This document shows, piece after piece, positions 18 to 8,986 of a stretch of 56,185 nt of DNA; positions within the stretch are counted from its first letter, which is position 1; the number at the start of each line of letters is the position of its first letter. The position numbers and the translations under genes are program-made. This DNA comes from an uncultured Victivallales bacterium (GTDB taxonomy: Bacteria > Verrucomicrobiota > Lentisphaeria > Victivallales > UBA1829). The stretch is from positions 1 to 56,185 of the forward strand of contig CALXRI010000021.1 of assembly GCA_944390795.1 (NCBI GenBank), written 5' to 3'. The notes beneath the pieces are model-generated. The model was not told the origin of the DNA, made no database searches, and saw only the letters and a list, made by a program, of their open reading frames with translations.

Positions 18-545
18 CAAGGGCCAGTGGCCCTTGACCCCGAGAAAAATGCTCTCGCATTTTTCCGTCTAAAAAAAATAATTTGCAGCGCAAATTATGA
101 TTCGTGCAGGACTCTCAGTCCTGCCGCGTTCCAGCTGCGCAAGCTGGTCGCGCGGAGCGCGAAATCTCCGCCGGCGGCGGTTCCAACCGCTGAAGGACGA
201 GAAGCGAAGCTTCGAGAGCCGCCGGCACAGCGTATGACCTCGGGGGAAAAAACGGAGCTCTCGCGGATACGCATGTGAAAAACATGCAATCTCGGGGAAT
301 GGTCAGAGGCTCTCATGATTATTGATTAGTAAGGAGCCGAAAAAATGCTCTCGCATTCTTTCGGCTCATCTCAATGGATACGCCCGGAGCTCTCGAACTT
401 TTTCACAGAAAAAGTTCTCGTCACTGAGCGGTCTGAACCGCTCCGGGCGGGGGATTTCGCGCTCCGCGCGACCAGCGTTTCGACGCTGGAGCACGACAAG
501 GACCGACGGCCCTTGACCCCGGGAAAAATGCTCCCGCATTTTTCC
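18..545. repeat. Array of at least 16 tandem short hairpins
   Basis: This stretch has no convincing gene and consists almost entirely of tight inverted repeats with loops of 2-5 nt. I can place them at 18-36, 44-65, 78-98, 106-124, 131-147, 148-162, 177-190, 201-213, 271-287, 334-367 (15-bp stem, one mismatch), 395-417 (10-bp stem), 426-443, 457-471, 472-489 (TTCG loop), 497-515 and 522-545. The stem sequences differ, but the words CTCTCG or CTCTC recur in loops and spacers. The block at 18-67 is repeated in slightly diverged form at 497-547. The hairpin next to the Bat gene (522-545) could act as its terminator, but that does not explain the rest. I do not recognise the element. Confidence 0.85.
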
Positions 546-554
546 GTTTCCGTA

Positions 555-3254
555 TCAGTTGGCGGAGATGCCGCGCGGTGTCCAGAGACTCGCGACATCG
601 GCTGCGCGCATCCAGCCTTCCGCGTCGCCGGACCGGATGCGGACCCAGTCCATCCGCCGTTCGCCGATCAGGACCTCCTCGCCGGCCTTAAGTTTCATCT
701 CGACCCGGCCCGACTTCTCGGACGGAAGCGAGTAAACCGGAGCGTTGCGCACCGTGACAAGCGCATATTTTTCATTGTAGGCCGTCATTTTCTGGGAAAG
801 CGCCGCAACGGCGGACCCGGCAATCAGGAAGCATCCCGCAATCAGGAAAATCCGGAACAACACCCGTTTTTCCGCAATCCGCCGGACGCCGAGGCCGGCA
901 AAAATCAGCGCGACCCCGAATGCAAGAAGAAGCATCCACTCGTCCGGGCGCAGGGAATCGCGCAGATAGACCGGAATGTCCGAAGGCGACGCGATCAGAT
1001 ACTTTTCCGGCAGCCCGAGTTTGCGGCGCACGAGATTCAGATTTTCCAGAATGTCCGAATCACGCGGCGCAAGACGGGAAGCGCGCTCATAACAGATCAG
1101 CGCGCGCGGCAGATTGTCCAGCTTGTAAAGACAGTTTCCCATGTTGTAGAGAACATGTGCGGACGGTCTGGATTTTTCCAGGCGCGACGCATAGAACTTC
1201 CCGGCATCCTCGAATTTGCCCGAGTCGTAAGCGGTCATGGCCTCCGCGTCGTTTGTGACCGGAGCCTCCTTCGCAAGAGTGACATCCGCACCGTAAGCCG
1301 GAACGGAAAATGCGATCAGCGCGACGGCAGCAGCACCAAGCCGGGAGAGCGCCTTCACCAGACGCTGCCGGAATTCCGGCGTGAAACGCGTCTCCTGCGA
1401 CGGCATCCACGCGGACTGCGCAATTTCCTCCAGCATGTCAGCGAGTTCCGGCGAGTCCGAACGCACGGCGGAAGCCGCTTCGCACAGATCGCTTCCCGGC
1501 GGAAGATCCGCAAGATCGGCAAGATAGGAGGCGATGTCGCCGGAAACCGAGGAAAGTTCCTGCGGATTCAATGCCTTCAGACGGGCGATGAGTTCGCATC
1601 TGCGTTTCTTCGCCGCGTTCCGCCGGAGAATCGACGGATCGTTTTCCAGAGTCTTGCGACGGAAGTGGACGATCTCGCAGACGATCCAGAACAGAAGTCC
1701 GAGAATGACCAGAGGCACTCCCGTGAACAGCGCATTCCGATAAAGCGGCATCCGCACGCCGGAACGATCCAGTTTCTTGAGATAGAGAATTTCCTCGGGC
1801 CTGCGCCGCTCGGGTTCGCCCGCTTCCGTCGCCGGGACGGACGGCGCGATATAATCGGCCGCAACAGACGCGGCGGAATAGGAGCCCTGTTCAATGTTCA
1901 GTTTCCGGCTGAACGACTGCGTCTCGTATTTCCCCGTTTCGGGATTGAACGTGGCATACGGAGGAAGCACAAGATTGTCTTTTCCGGTGTCGAGCCGTTC
2001 CGTCGGAATCAGGATGTAGCGGACCTCCGCGGAATTGACGCTCTTTTCGATTTCAGGCGGATAAATGCGGTATCCTTTCAAGTCCAGCGTCTGGGCGCGA
2101 AGCGTGTCGAGCGAGCCCGTCCCGCGGAATTTGATCCGGAGCGTAACGGGTTCGCCGGTCTTGTAAGGCGGGGGAGTGATTTCGACTTCCGAACGCCAGG
2201 ACCCGACCAGTCCCGTGAAAAACATGTCCTTCGGAGGCGGCGGAAGCGCCTTTACCGAAATCGTTGCGGGTTCCGTCTGAAGCGTGCGGGCGATTTCACG
2301 GTCGCGGGAGAAGAAACTCCCCCCGAAAAAGTCGTCGAACAGCGAATCCGCGCGGGAGGGGCGGTCGTCCGGAACAACCAGCGCGCCCTGCGTCACGGTG
2401 GAGACTTTCATTTCTCCCGCCGCGATCGGGCGGAAAGCGGTCTGGAAGGAATACACTTTATAAAGGCGGCCGTCGACCTCGGCGGTGGTCTCCGTCGGAC
2501 GGTCGAAGTTCGGATTCTGATCGTTCACGCTTTTATAGTCCTTGAGCACTGCGCCGTCCCGCTCGCCGAAATTCACCGTCGGCCAGGACAACTGCGCCCG
2601 GACGCCGTGAAGGATGTAGACATTGATCCGAAGCGGAATCTCCTCGCCGATGTAATACTCCTTCCGGTCGGAGACAATCGATGCGCGGGCGAACATCGCC
2701 TCGTCCAGGGTAACGCCACCCTGCGCGGACTTCTCCTGTTCCTGTCCGGACGGATTCCGAGCCGGAGGCGCACTCCGGCGGGAACGCCGGGAAGGTGCGG
2801 GCATTCCGCGCAGACGCGGCGTCGGAAACGCATTGCGGAGCCCAGCGTTTGCCTGCGGAGAAGCAGGAGTCGGCATGACCGCCTGAAATTCAACAGGCTT
2901 CGTGCGTTCCTTGCTGTGTGTCAGGCGCAGGGAGGGAATCGTGTACTTCCCCTCCTTTTCCACGGTGAACGGAATGCCGAGCTCATAAACCGAGGAGCGG
3001 CGCCCGTTTATGATGCTGATGCTCCGGCTGCTGCTGGAGCCGTTTCCCCAGCGCAGACCGTCGATTTCCGGAAGGCGGCTCCGGACCTGGTTCGCGGCGC
3101 CGTCGTTGGAACGGATCACCAGCTGAGCAGGAACGCCGACCTGTACCGGATTCGGGGTGACAAAAACCTCCACCTTCTCCGCCGCGCAGAGAAGCGCCGC
3201 GCCGAGGGAAAGTCCCAGTATCAGAATTCCTTTTCTCCATTGCTGCTGCAACAT
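555..3254 (-). CDS. BatD-BatE fusion, aerotolerance protein
   Basis: This 899-residue protein joins two Bat components. An N-terminal signal sequence is followed by a BatD-like (oxygen tolerance) periplasmic region to about residue 480, with its beta-rich opening after the AAEKVEVFVTPNPVQVG stretch, and a membrane segment near 495-515. After a cytosolic linker and a second hydrophobic segment near 640 come TPR repeats (about 665-760, motif YNMGNCLYKLDNLPRALICYERA), two membrane segments and a C-terminal bacterial SH3 domain, which is the BatE layout. The ATG at 3254 is preferred over the GTG at 3260 because GGGAG lies 9 nt upstream of it. The gene follows the BatB-BatC gene by about 20 nt, so the two are co-transcribed. 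Bat proteins are linked to envelope stress and oxygen tolerance in Bacteroides and Leptospira; the exact role is unproven. Confidence 0.85.
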   Translation of the reverse strand: MLQQQWRKGILILGLSLGAALLCAAEKVEVFVTPNPVQVGVPAQLVIRSNDGAANQVRSRLPEIDGLRWGNGSSSSRSISIINGRRSSVYELGIPFTVEKEGKYTIPSLRLTHSKERTKPVEFQAVMPTPASPQANAGLRNAFPTPRLRGMPAPSRRSRRSAPPARNPSGQEQEKSAQGGVTLDEAMFARASIVSDRKEYYIGEEIPLRINVYILHGVRAQLSWPTVNFGERDGAVLKDYKSVNDQNPNFDRPTETTAEVDGRLYKVYSFQTAFRPIAAGEMKVSTVTQGALVVPDDRPSRADSLFDDFFGGSFFSRDREIARTLQTEPATISVKALPPPPKDMFFTGLVGSWRSEVEITPPPYKTGEPVTLRIKFRGTGSLDTLRAQTLDLKGYRIYPPEIEKSVNSAEVRYILIPTERLDTGKDNLVLPPYATFNPETGKYETQSFSRKLNIEQGSYSAASVAADYIAPSVPATEAGEPERRRPEEILYLKKLDRSGVRMPLYRNALFTGVPLVILGLLFWIVCEIVHFRRKTLENDPSILRRNAAKKRRCELIARLKALNPQELSSVSGDIASYLADLADLPPGSDLCEAASAVRSDSPELADMLEEIAQSAWMPSQETRFTPEFRQRLVKALSRLGAAAVALIAFSVPAYGADVTLAKEAPVTNDAEAMTAYDSGKFEDAGKFYASRLEKSRPSAHVLYNMGNCLYKLDNLPRALICYERASRLAPRDSDILENLNLVRRKLGLPEKYLIASPSDIPVYLRDSLRPDEWMLLLAFGVALIFAGLGVRRIAEKRVLFRIFLIAGCFLIAGSAVAALSQKMTAYNEKYALVTVRNAPVYSLPSEKSGRVEMKLKAGEEVLIGERRMDWVRIRSGDAEGWMRAADVASLWTPRGISAN

Positions 3255-3275
3255 TGTCACTGTCTCCCGTTGTAA

Positions 3276-5687
3276 TTACCAGTCTTTTTCGACCGGACGG
3301 ATGCCGCGGGCGCGTTTCATACGGTCCTTGAGTTCATCCTTCAGAAGTTTTTCGTCATTGGACATCAAGTCAAGCAGGGCACGAGCCTGATTCCTGTCAA
3401 TGTCCTTATTGTCATCTTCCTCCTGCGGCCGGGGCTGTTCGCCCGACTCTTTCGGAAGTTCACGATCCTTGTTCTGATCCTTCTGATCCTTCTGATCTTT
3501 CTGATCTTTCTGATCTTTCTGATCTTTCTGATCTTTCTGATCCTTCTGATCCTTCTGATCCTTCTGATCCTTCTGATCCTTCTGATCCTTCTGATCTTTC
3601 TGATCCTTGTTCTGATCGGACGAACCGCCAAGCTGCTCCAGAGCTTTCTTCAGATGTTCTTCCGCCTCTTTGCCTTTGTTTTCCTCCTGAGCCTGACGAG
3701 CCTTGTCAAGTTCCTCTTTTGCTTTCTTCGCCTGATCTTCCAGATTTTTCTGATTCAGCTCCCGAGCCTGATCCTGCAACTTCTGCGCACTTTCACGGGC
3801 TTTTTCCGTCTGTTGTTTGGCCTGATCCTGCTGGTTCTGCTGCTGATCCTGCTGATCCTTGTTCTGCTGCTGATTCTGCTGTTGATCCTTGTTCTGCTGC
3901 TGATCCTGCTTCTGCTGATTCTGCTGCTGATCCTGCTTCTGCTGATTCTGCTGCTGATCCTTGTTCTGCTGCTGATCCTGCTTCTGCTGATTCTGCTGCT
4001 GATCCTTGTTCTGCTGCTGATCCTGCTTCTGCTGATTCTGCTGCTGCTGATTCTGCTTCTGCTGATTCTGCTGCTGATCCTTGTTCTGCTGCTGTTGCTG
4101 ATTTTTCGCCTGCTGCGTATTGTTCCGCGCCTCCTGCTGCTGTTTCTTCAGCTCCTCAATCTTCTTTTTCAGCTCCTCGGCCTTTTTCCGGTCGATGAGA
4201 AGAAGCTGCTGATTCCTGGAAACGGAGGAGGAATCGGCGCTCTCGCGCAGCGCTTCCTTGTAAATATCCTGCGTGGCGGCAATCTGCTTCAAGGTCTGAT
4301 CGACCTCCTGCAATGCGGCGTCAAGCTGCTGGGCGGCAAGTGTCCGCTGCGCCTTGTCAAAGACGGAGCGAGCCTGCTGATGATGAAGAACCCCGAGATT
4401 CTGATAGGATTTCGCACGGACTTCCCGATTGTCTCCGGCGCTTCCGATCGCCTGTTCATAACGCGTCAGAGCCTTCTGCGCATCTTTTTCCTCGGACTGC
4501 GCCTTCAATCCTTCGTTGTAGAGTTCCACCGGCGTGGCATCGGATTTCTCCTCGACGGCCGCAGGCGCGGTCTCTTGAGCGGAGGGAGCCGTTTCGGGAC
4601 TCGGAAGCGGCGCATCCTCCGCGCCGAAGGAATGCAGTCCGGCGAAAAGAAGTCCGAAAAGAAGGAGACATCTTGCCGCAGACGCGCTCATCCGCTTTTC
4701 CGAGAGACAGAACCAGAGGCAGAGAAGCAGGAACGCTCCCGCAAGCGGATAGACGGGCCGCTCGATCGGGCGCGTCTGCTTGCCGCTGTCGATCTTCTGT
4801 CTGGCGAGCTTCCCGATGCGCGCTTCAAGGCGGTTGAGCCCGGAATCGGTCGTTGTGGACCGGACATAGATTCCGCCGGTTTTCTGCGCAAGGGAGCTCA
4901 GGGCGCGCTCGTTGAGCGGACTCTTCACCGGATTTCCCTGCGCATCCTTCAGCGTGCGGAGTCCGCCGTTTTCAGACGGGACCTGAATCAGCGACGGCTG
5001 GGACGGATCGCCGATGCCGGCGACAAAAAGCGGAATCTTCAGCTTGACGATCTCGCCGACGGCCTTGCCGGAATCGCCGTACAGCTCGTCGCCGTCGGTA
5101 ATGAGAAGAACCGCGCGATGAGAGGTTTCCGCCGCGCGGAATCCCTTGACCGCCGTGGCAAGCGCCTGTTCAATATTGGTGCCGCCGACGGGAATCGTAT
5201 CGGTGGAAAGATCGTTGAGCGAAGCCAGAAAACTGGTTTTGTCAATGGTCAGCGGACATTCGAGAAACGCCTGTCCGGCAAAGGCGATCAATCCGAAACG
5301 GTCGCCGGGATTGCGTTTCACCAGCTCGCGGACCAGCCATTTTGCGTGTTCGAGCCGGGAGGGGCGCACATCCTGGGCAAGCATGCTGCGCGACGTGTCG
5401 AACACCACCATGATGTCGCGTCCCTGCCCCGTATAGGGCTGAATGCTGACACCCCAGGAGGGACGCGCCGCCGCAACAAAAAGAAGAACCAGCGCACCGG
5501 CGAGAATCACGGCGCGCCAGAAACGGCGGGATCCGGACACGGAGGTGTACGAGGGATCTCCGGCGCGCTTTCCGAGAAAACGCCTCAGAAGCGTGTGGCG
5601 CCTCCGCCATCCGAAATGAAATACAAGAAAAAACAACGGCAGAACCCAGAACAGGTTCCAGAGAATTTCTCCATTCAAAAAACGCAT
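3276..5687 (-). CDS. BatB-BatC fusion: vWFA protein with TPR and Gln/Asn/Lys-rich tail
   Basis: The 803-residue protein starts with two membrane segments (about 10-27 and 58-76). A von Willebrand A domain follows with an intact MIDAS: DTSRS, the threonine in PVGGTN, and the aspartate in TDGDE. Two more hydrophobic segments near 318-360 lead into a TPR-like region (about 390-480), as in BatC. The rest is highly charged low complexity: Gln/Asn/Lys repeats at roughly 520-640 and a (Asp-Gln-Lys)n run near 695-745, then a short ordered C-terminus. Normal BatB and BatC are separate proteins. BatA, MoxR and DUF58 genes, which usually precede them, are not upstream here. The start at 5687 has GGGGGAG about 9 nt upstream. 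It is the first gene of a two-gene operon with the BatD-BatE fusion. Confidence 0.85.
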   Translation of the reverse strand: MRFLNGEILWNLFWVLPLFFLVFHFGWRRRHTLLRRFLGKRAGDPSYTSVSGSRRFWRAVILAGALVLLFVAAARPSWGVSIQPYTGQGRDIMVVFDTSRSMLAQDVRPSRLEHAKWLVRELVKRNPGDRFGLIAFAGQAFLECPLTIDKTSFLASLNDLSTDTIPVGGTNIEQALATAVKGFRAAETSHRAVLLITDGDELYGDSGKAVGEIVKLKIPLFVAGIGDPSQPSLIQVPSENGGLRTLKDAQGNPVKSPLNERALSSLAQKTGGIYVRSTTTDSGLNRLEARIGKLARQKIDSGKQTRPIERPVYPLAGAFLLLCLWFCLSEKRMSASAARCLLLFGLLFAGLHSFGAEDAPLPSPETAPSAQETAPAAVEEKSDATPVELYNEGLKAQSEEKDAQKALTRYEQAIGSAGDNREVRAKSYQNLGVLHHQQARSVFDKAQRTLAAQQLDAALQEVDQTLKQIAATQDIYKEALRESADSSSVSRNQQLLLIDRKKAEELKKKIEELKKQQQEARNNTQQAKNQQQQQNKDQQQNQQKQNQQQQNQQKQDQQQNKDQQQNQQKQDQQQNKDQQQNQQKQDQQQNQQKQDQQQNKDQQQNQQQNKDQQDQQQNQQDQAKQQTEKARESAQKLQDQARELNQKNLEDQAKKAKEELDKARQAQEENKGKEAEEHLKKALEQLGGSSDQNKDQKDQKDQKDQKDQKDQKDQKDQKDQKDQKDQKDQKDQKDQKDQNKDRELPKESGEQPRPQEEDDNKDIDRNQARALLDLMSNDEKLLKDELKDRMKRARGIRPVEKDW
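3475..3610. repeat. In-frame 9-nt tandem repeat coding for (Asp-Gln-Lys)n
   Basis: About fourteen copies of the 9-nt unit TGATC(C/T)TTC (plus-strand reading) lie head to tail inside the BatB-BatC gene. The units fall in blocks of identical third-base variants (two C, five T, several C, one T), which suggests recent slippage or unequal exchange. Because the unit is a multiple of three, copy-number change keeps the reading frame. Confidence 0.9.
3826..4112. repeat. Gln/Asn/Lys/Asp-rich coding repeats
   Basis: CTGCTGATCCTT and CTGCTGATTCTG words (plus-strand reading) repeat irregularly in units of 12-30 nt within the BatB-BatC gene. They encode QQQNKD and QQNQQKQD blocks. This is a different repeat class from the 9-nt array at 3475-3610. 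Confidence 0.85.
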
Positions 5688-7457: not shown

Positions 7458-8078
7458 ATGCTTCAGATACTTGCCGCCACATCGAACAAGCACAAAGTCG
7501 AAGAGTTCCGCGCCGCCTTCGCGCCGCTGCTCTCCCGCATGGAAATCCTGACCGCGGACGACATCCGCGGCTATCCGGAAATCCAGGAAACCGGCACATC
7601 CTTCGAGGAAAACGCCGACATCAAGGCGCGCGAAGCCTCCGCCTACGCCGACATGCCCGCATTCGCGGACGATTCCGGACTCGAAGTTGCGGCGCTCAAC
7701 GGCGCGCCGGGGATTTTCTCCGCCCGTTACGCCGGAGATCACGCCAGCGACGCCGAGCGCATCCGGAAGCTTCTGGACGAGATGAAAGGCAAAACCAACC
7801 GCCGCGCGCGTTTTGTCTGCGTGATCGCCCTGGCATACCGGGGCACAAGCGTCAAGACCTTCCGCGGCGAAGTCAACGGCACGATCATCGACGAACCGCG
7901 CGGCGCCCACGGCTTCGGCTATGATCCCGTCTTTGTGCCCGACGGATATGACAAAACCTTCGGCGAGCTCGGCCCCGAAGTCAAGGACAAGATCAGTCAC
8001 CGGGCGAAGGCGCTGGAAAAAATCGTCGCCTTCATCAGGGAAGAGCTGGATTCCATGGACGATTTTGAATTCGAATGA
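7458..8078 (+). CDS. rdgB: dITP/XTP pyrophosphatase (HAM1/RdgB family)
   Basis: This 206-residue enzyme hydrolyses non-canonical purine triphosphates such as dITP and XTP to monophosphates and so keeps deaminated bases out of DNA. Family signatures are present: ATSNKHKVEEF at the N-terminus, TGTSFEENADIKA, FADDSGLEV, the GAPGIFSARYAG nucleotide-binding stretch, and HGFGYDPVFVPDGYDKTFGEL, with KISHRAKAL near the end. Length matches the family. The ATG at 7458 has GGGAG 7 nt upstream; an earlier in-frame ATG at 7401 lies in the promoter region and lacks a ribosome site. The stop overlaps the next gene by 4 nt. Confidence 0.95.
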   Translation: MLQILAATSNKHKVEEFRAAFAPLLSRMEILTADDIRGYPEIQETGTSFEENADIKAREASAYADMPAFADDSGLEVAALNGAPGIFSARYAGDHASDAERIRKLLDEMKGKTNRRARFVCVIALAYRGTSVKTFRGEVNGTIIDEPRGAHGFGYDPVFVPDGYDKTFGELGPEVKDKISHRAKALEKIVAFIREELDSMDDFEFE

Positions 8079-8986
8079 AGCTTCTTTTTCTGTTTTTCGC
8101 CCTCTATTCCGGACTGCTGCTTTCCGGCGCGGAAACGGTTCTGTTCGACCGGCCGCTGAAGGCGGGGGACCGTTTCGACTGCATGGCGGACTCCTCCCAG
8201 TCGCAGCAGTACACGTTCCGGATGCCCGGCATCGACAACCCTCCGGTGCGCCTGAACACAGTCAGGCTTCGGTTCGCGGGGCTGCTGACGGTTGAAAAGG
8301 TCGATGCCGAGGGAAAAGCGCTGAACATCCGCCTGGAAATCCGATCCCTGCGCGGAAGCATCAACGGCCGGAATGCCGACTGTTCCGCAATCGAGGGAAA
8401 AACCGTCACGGGTGACCTCTCCCGTTCGCCTGCCGTGTTCCACTCGCCGGACGGCACTCTGAACAGGGAGGCTGTCATTCTGCTCTCCGCCCTCTTCCGC
8501 CCGGTCTCCACGCACAGTCTTGCGGAGCTGACCGGAAGACAGCGCACGCTGGAACGGATCGGCGAAACCTGGAGTCCCGATCTGCGCGCGTTCAGCGAAT
8601 CGCTGCGCAGACGCGGAATCGATCTCCCGCCCGGTGCGATCAAAGGAACCATCACGTATGCGGGGAAGGAAACCTTCCGAGCCCTGGAATGTTTCGCATT
8701 CCGTTTTTTCATCCAGTCGAAGAAAACCGCCGGATATGACTTCCGCTTTTCGGGGCAGATTCTGTTTCCTGTGAATCCGGAGGCGGGACCGGCGGTCCGA
8801 GTCACGCGCGACGCCACCGAGGTGATCGACCGCCTGCTCTCCGCGTCCGATCCCGTTGCGGCGGGATCGAAACTCAAACTGATCAGCACGGACAGAACGG
8901 ACATGATGCTTTTTCCCGTCCGTTTCCTGAAAGAAGAAGCGCCCGCTCCGAAAAAGGAATCCTTCTGGGACGCTCTGCTGCGCTGA
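8075..8986 (+). CDS. Secreted protein of unknown function
   Basis: A 303-residue protein with a clear signal peptide (MKLLFLFFALYSGLLLSGA) and no later membrane segment. I recognise no domain. The body alternates beta-like stretches, and near the C-terminus is a short basic/proline segment (EEAPAPKKESF). The gene starts inside rdgB through an ATGA overlap, so it is translationally coupled to it. It converges with the DUF4091 gene, leaving a 10-nt gap with a weak hairpin and no T-tract. Confidence 0.8.
   Translation: MKLLFLFFALYSGLLLSGAETVLFDRPLKAGDRFDCMADSSQSQQYTFRMPGIDNPPVRLNTVRLRFAGLLTVEKVDAEGKALNIRLEIRSLRGSINGRNADCSAIEGKTVTGDLSRSPAVFHSPDGTLNREAVILLSALFRPVSTHSLAELTGRQRTLERIGETWSPDLRAFSESLRRRGIDLPPGAIKGTITYAGKETFRALECFAFRFFIQSKKTAGYDFRFSGQILFPVNPEAGPAVRVTRDATEVIDRLLSASDPVAAGSKLKLISTDRTDMMLFPVRFLKEEAPAPKKESFWDALLR

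Follow-up and report, generated by a model that had tools for sequence, protein, structure and literature searches.

The window analysed here, a stretch of 56,185 nucleotides from an uncultured Victivallales bacterium, begins inside a dense array of hairpins, and this array is one copy, about 0.5 kb long, of an interspersed repeat (element L) in the metagenome-assembled genome (MAG) to which the window belongs. On balance, it probably belongs to a family of modular palindromic repeats, non-autonomous and found in the order Victivallales, similar in kind to BIMEs and REPs, with a putative role in DNA topology or as a boundary. Below we report the structure of the array, its relatives within the order, and the way in which its stems and its positions have been conserved.

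Structure of the hairpin array

Positions 1-560 of the window contain 16 non-overlapping hairpins whose arms pair perfectly over 5 bp or more and whose loops measure 3-9, compared with 3.9 ± 1.8 (maximum 9) in 300 Markov-1 shuffles, and 12 hairpins with perfect arms of at least 6 bp, compared with 1.16 ± 0.98 (maximum 4). The folding z of the region is -12.95 as RNA and -13.3 as DNA. This is in accordance with a preliminary description of the sequence, which placed a dense hairpin array correctly at 18-547. The same description reported that the block at 18-67 recurs at 497-547 with a change on both sides of a stem; indeed, blocks 18-68 and 497-547 share 88% identity, and GAGA/TCTC in one has become GGGA/TCCC in the other. 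It also reported a shared word CTCTC(G), which stands in its longer form only: CTCTCG occurs five times, both strands counted (Markov mean 0.71, maximum 4), whereas seven occurrences of CTCTC are not unusual (mean 1.86, maximum 10). Part of the CTCTCG signal comes from the conserved GAGAGC linker of the module called F below.

The layout of L is an inverted unit E-C-B-A, a module F1, a spacer, a hairpin G, a module F2 and a forward unit A-B-C-D, so that a spacer is enclosed by two multi-hairpin units, F-A-B-C-D/E, in mutually inverted orientation, with nearly fixed linkers joining hairpins A, B and C. At the left end, positions 1-17 are the truncated remnant of a reverse B-C unit on the minus strand; the array continues on another contig, C61, as the overlap with that contig and sequence comparison show. 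Hairpins C (18-36, CAAGGGCC/GGCCCTTG) and D (41-67, GAAAAATGC/GCATTTTTC, loop TCTC) follow on the plus strand. The next four hairpins lie on the minus strand: hairpin E (70-98), with a hairpin at 78-98 and then, read directly from the sequence, a run of eight T on that strand, and hairpins C (104-126, GCAGGACT/AGTCCTGC), B (131-147, CCAGCT/AGCTGG) and A (148-162, TCGCGC/GCGCGA) of the reverse unit. Module F1 (170-226, plus strand) is branched, with the outer stem GCCGGCGGC/GCCGCCGGC and the linkers GACGA and GAGAGC, which are conserved in an alignment of 19 F modules. Comparison of L copies delimits the middle spacer between the two inverted units (227-333), and hairpin G (334-367, GAGCCGAAAAAATGC/GCATTCTTTCGGCTC), identified as the inverted pair I4, comes next. 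Module F2 (381-449, minus strand) has the shape of F1 reversed, with the outer stem CGCCCGGAG/CTCCGGGCG, other stem sequences and hairpins at 395-417 and 426-443; in the alignment, F1 and F2 agree in their outer and inner stems, whose pairs are swapped. The forward unit (453-547, plus strand) has hairpin A at 457-471, B at 472-489, C at 497-515 and D at 520-547. Only 7 bases from the array is the stop codon of a convergent flanking gene (555-3260, minus strand), which encodes a BatD-like domain (Pfam PF13584, 1.8e-11), TPR and SH3.

The left part of the array is cut by the start of the contig, and the end of contig C61 (C61:5114-5250) overlaps positions 1-138 of the window by 138 bp. On C61 the missing part is another A-B-C-D unit, which starts shortly past the stop codon of a gene that converges on the batD-like gene, and the complete array sits between these two convergent genes, batD being the right one.

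Distribution of the repeat family

In its own genome (G000), element L gives 79 blastn pieces, and its sister element S gives 49, many of them at 97-100% identity. These copy numbers are lower bounds; the assemblies are fragmented MAGs, and their contigs frequently break off within such repeats. Element S is 156 bp long and carries A-B-C between two end hairpins (TTTATTCAAAAAAATTTAGG ... GCATCGCGGTAATTTATT). Partial, tandem and single-unit copies of L are common, and the F-A-B-C-D/E units occur scattered as single units, as tandems and in inverted pairs. A near-identical S subfamily of its own is present in the genome G002, and a further one in G003. Copies were sought in related genomes as well, and related ones occur within the genus, in genus g10 and in one more family of the order; a sister genus has many single A-B-C-D units. 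Hairpins A-B-C recur across the order: with their covariance model, four genomes each give at least 37 matches, and several genomes from another family give lower numbers. Beyond the order there are isolated weak matches, probably due to chance. Among 84,980 species genomes, an exact 30-nt pattern matched uncultured MAGs only, and those with specific titles are Lentisphaeria or Victivallales. Viral contigs contain no match to an exact 33-nt core pattern, and carriage by phage was rejected on this result. In the literature covered, a search on repeats of Lentisphaerae or Victivallis returned nothing specific. For practical purposes, many contig ends in MAGs of this group coincide with these repeats.

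Two further kinds of repeat lie beside copies of the family. A second hairpin-rich family (GACGGCAGGCTTGCCTGCCGGGTGCAGGTG...CACCTGCC...GTGAGGG...CCCTCAC) flanks the repeat copies at L020 and L023 (G000, contigs C8 and C1), and is multi-copy in G002 and G003 too. In genus g10, an array of GCCGCTGCGCGGT + T-run repeats lies beside an A-B-C-D unit (L052), upstream of the unit at 1501.

Insertion and recombination of the copies

The sister element S is mobile. Its copies are bounded by TTTATT or close variants, one hexamer is common to adjoining tandem copies, and empty sites in a sister genome reveal that insertion was precise, at TTTATT/TTCATT. The orthologous empty sites have one hexamer each (L125, L128, L253, the window near 7970-8178, and others); for example, the window at 7970-8178 reads CTTCATTCGAATTC where G002 has the 156-bp element (L123). 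At two informative sites the hexamer on the left is identical to that of the empty site, unlike the one on the right, which would fit a target retained at the left flank; a 6-bp duplication with later mutation is also possible. Copies of L are mostly common to G000 and G002, and at one L site G003 has a lone D hairpin only. Two inverted L copies flank one gene (L009, G000:C24:39860-43115), and the order of the four flanks places this gene in flipped orientation in G002 relative to G000; therefore L copies act as substrates for recombination.

No mobilising enzyme for L or S was found in the own genome, in G003 or among the Y1 loci of the whole order, nor was an autonomous partner bearing the ends of S. 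In the own genome Y1 transposase has a single match, an IS200 remnant. Y1 transposase is absent from G003, whose assembly, like that of G000, is incomplete, and Y1_Tnp is absent from the repeat-rich G003, G019 and G026. Among 34 Y1_Tnp loci of the order, none is flanked by units, and one shows a weak resemblance about 860 bp away. A RAYT or Y1 transposase was rejected as the mobiliser, as the own copy is an IS200 fragment and the loci across the order are not flanked by units. This own copy is a decayed IS200-like element with a Y1 transposase fragment on contig C3 of G000 (L074, about 4360-5000), with neither L nor S beside it.

Conservation of the stems

Across 62 nonredundant A-B-C-D units we count 78 compensatory cells, against 24.6 ± 3.3 in shuffles, and sliding the stem partners destroys the signal. 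The gap-free subset of 22 sequences gives 30 compensatory cells against 10.5 ± 3.9, with 98.2% of cells paired. The overlapping stem CGAGA/TCTCG, which was proposed to form an alternative structure, has its five pairs intact in no more than 3 of the 33 gap-free units, and hairpin D has a nearly random loop. This loop differs even between two nearly identical tandem L copies at L012 (ACAGACGC versus GCCGGCGC).

The resident copies can be compared between species, with the loops as an internal neutral control. The comparison covers eight orthologous loci and a single species pair, G000 and G002. Among 429 pairs of perfect stems, 7 have changed on one side and 2 on both, and the reciprocal comparison shows 8 and 3 in 418 pairs; choosing hairpins that are perfect in one genome lowers these counts about two-fold, which is too little to explain the gap. 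In the loops, 47 of 253 positions differ (18.6%). The rest of the element differs at 77 of 1784 positions (4.3%) and other alignable intergenic DNA by 7.3%, while four-fold sites in the flanking genes, a yardstick drawn from a limited set of loci, differ by 13.6%. A stem rate from whole-element folds was set aside, its long-range pairs being unreliable. The loops behave as neutral sequence and the stems are constrained. Hypermutable loop tips were considered and rejected, as the loop value is only slightly above that of the four-fold sites and neutrality suffices for it.

Strand symmetry separates constraint on DNA from constraint on RNA. Stem mismatches in the 62 units are 15 G-T and 16 A-C, and the units in tandem gene contexts are 24 sense and 22 antisense. 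With G-T equal to A-C and no bias of orientation, the selection looks to act on DNA rather than on one RNA strand.

Placement and alternative explanations

Mechanical gene calling places a gene on each side of 39 copies; 26 of these copies have tandem neighbours, 12 convergent and a single one divergent. Divergent gaps make up 46% of the intergenic bases and 14% of the gene junctions in the window, a background from 56 kb, which is a small sample with mechanical codon-usage gene calls. The avoidance of divergent gaps could result from purifying selection on promoters alone. The placement matches that described for REPs, including their closeness to stop codons (PMC3733652).

The units lie past stop codons, in some cases by a few bases only, fold strongly and change in a compensatory manner, and on the minus strand a T run comes after hairpin E, all of which would suit a structured RNA, namely hairpins of a 3'-UTR or small RNA that protect or terminate transcripts. 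Such an RNA would however be expected to favour G-T over A-C mismatches and one orientation towards the genes, and neither is seen; no Rfam family reaches the cut-off, the best matches being far below the gathering scores, and terminator-like sites are no commoner than chance, so that both Rfam families and intrinsic terminators were rejected. We consider a structured RNA improbable. Still less credible is an account without selection, in which intrastrand, hairpin-templated correction at replication keeps the arms complementary. It agrees with the two-sided changes across copies and with the free divergence of the loops, but unbiased correction would make about half of the arm mutations two-sided, which at 13.6% divergence means dozens in about 430 pairs, and with 2-3 seen it is not the main cause.

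It has long been asked whether REP- or BIME-like repeats are merely selfish or of use to the host. If the family were a purely selfish palindromic repeat, its hairpins would serve mobilisation only and gene ends would be harmless places of insertion; the recent near-identical bursts of S in each species, its target-specific insertion, and the scarcity in divergent gaps, which fits the removal of promoter-damaging insertions, are in line with this. Selfish spread alone, on the other hand, would not preserve copies already in place, and in resident orthologous L copies the stems, though not the loops, are far less changed than four-fold sites. A purely selfish repeat is possible, though unlikely. 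We find the evidence best explained by a palindromic repeat that evolved independently, is or once was mobile, and is retained at its resident sites through selection for DNA structure. Among the interpretations of the preliminary description, a mobile repeat (the dispersed many-copy family and the empty sites of S), a recombination substrate (the one case of the C24 gene inverted between G000 and G002) and compensatory change in the main stems are supported, and selection on alternative structures and a structured RNA are not; for an attachment site in the phage or integron sense there is no evidence, the exact 33-nt core pattern being absent from viral contigs.

For the repeat kept by selection for DNA structure, we suggest that an enzyme acting in trans would recognise the hairpins and disperse the copies, and that copies landing beyond stop codons would be retained. 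There the palindromes may work at the level of DNA, irrespective of strand, and form a boundary between convergent or adjacent genes which would absorb supercoiling or stop transcription and replication complexes. We infer this topology or boundary role at gene ends from placement, symmetry and the analogy with BIMEs, to which gyrase and IHF bind. More tentatively, the family may be a lineage-wide chromosomal element in which the branched multi-hairpin DNA structure itself is selected in resident gene-end copies, with a boundary or topology role that arose independently of proteobacterial BIMEs and with a mobiliser other than RAYT. If the finding of constraint in resident copies holds, BIME-like palindromes at gene ends would have arisen independently in a distant phylum without RAYT, and this independent origin would argue for a general role of palindromes at gene ends.

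Comparison with known repeat systems

Like L, the BIMEs of enterobacteria, E. coli among them, are intergenic mosaics of palindromic units in alternating orientation with variable tandem copy number, located at 3' ends and between convergent or tandem genes. Both features are found here, the first in the inverted units around a spacer together with the single, tandem and partial copies, and the second in the 26 tandem and 12 convergent positions against one divergent. BIMEs are bound by gyrase and IHF (PMC2817692). The BIME unit is however a single palindrome of 20-40 bp, whereas here three to five hairpins are joined with a branched module, and there is no sequence relation and no GTAG tag.

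The GTAG and CGTC REPs (PMC3733652) and the REPINs with RAYT (PMC2817692, PMC3116915) share with this family high-copy palindromes, alternative complementary stem residues and the same placement at gene ends, and CGTC REPs are likewise without a dedicated transposase. Unlike REPs and REPINs, the family has no GTAG or CGTC tag at the hairpin foot and no linked RAYT: GTAG or GTGG, on either strand and anywhere, occurs in only 10 of 61 units, the conserved end of hairpin D is CCGT, and no RAYT flanked by the repeat is found among the 34 Y1_Tnp loci. G-T pairs are infrequent here, unlike the frequent GT pairing in REPs (PMC3733652). Lacking both the tag and the linked RAYT, the family is not a member of the described REP families, nor is it homologous to the proteobacterial BIMEs and REPs.

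Element S is further comparable with the MITE/PATE elements of IS200/IS605. It differs from these MITEs in having no cognate Y1, which is absent from G003 and present as a fragment only in G000 (both assemblies being incomplete). Like them, it shows no clear target duplication, carries similar hairpins in direct orientation near both ends, and uses a short fixed target that may be retained on the left flank.
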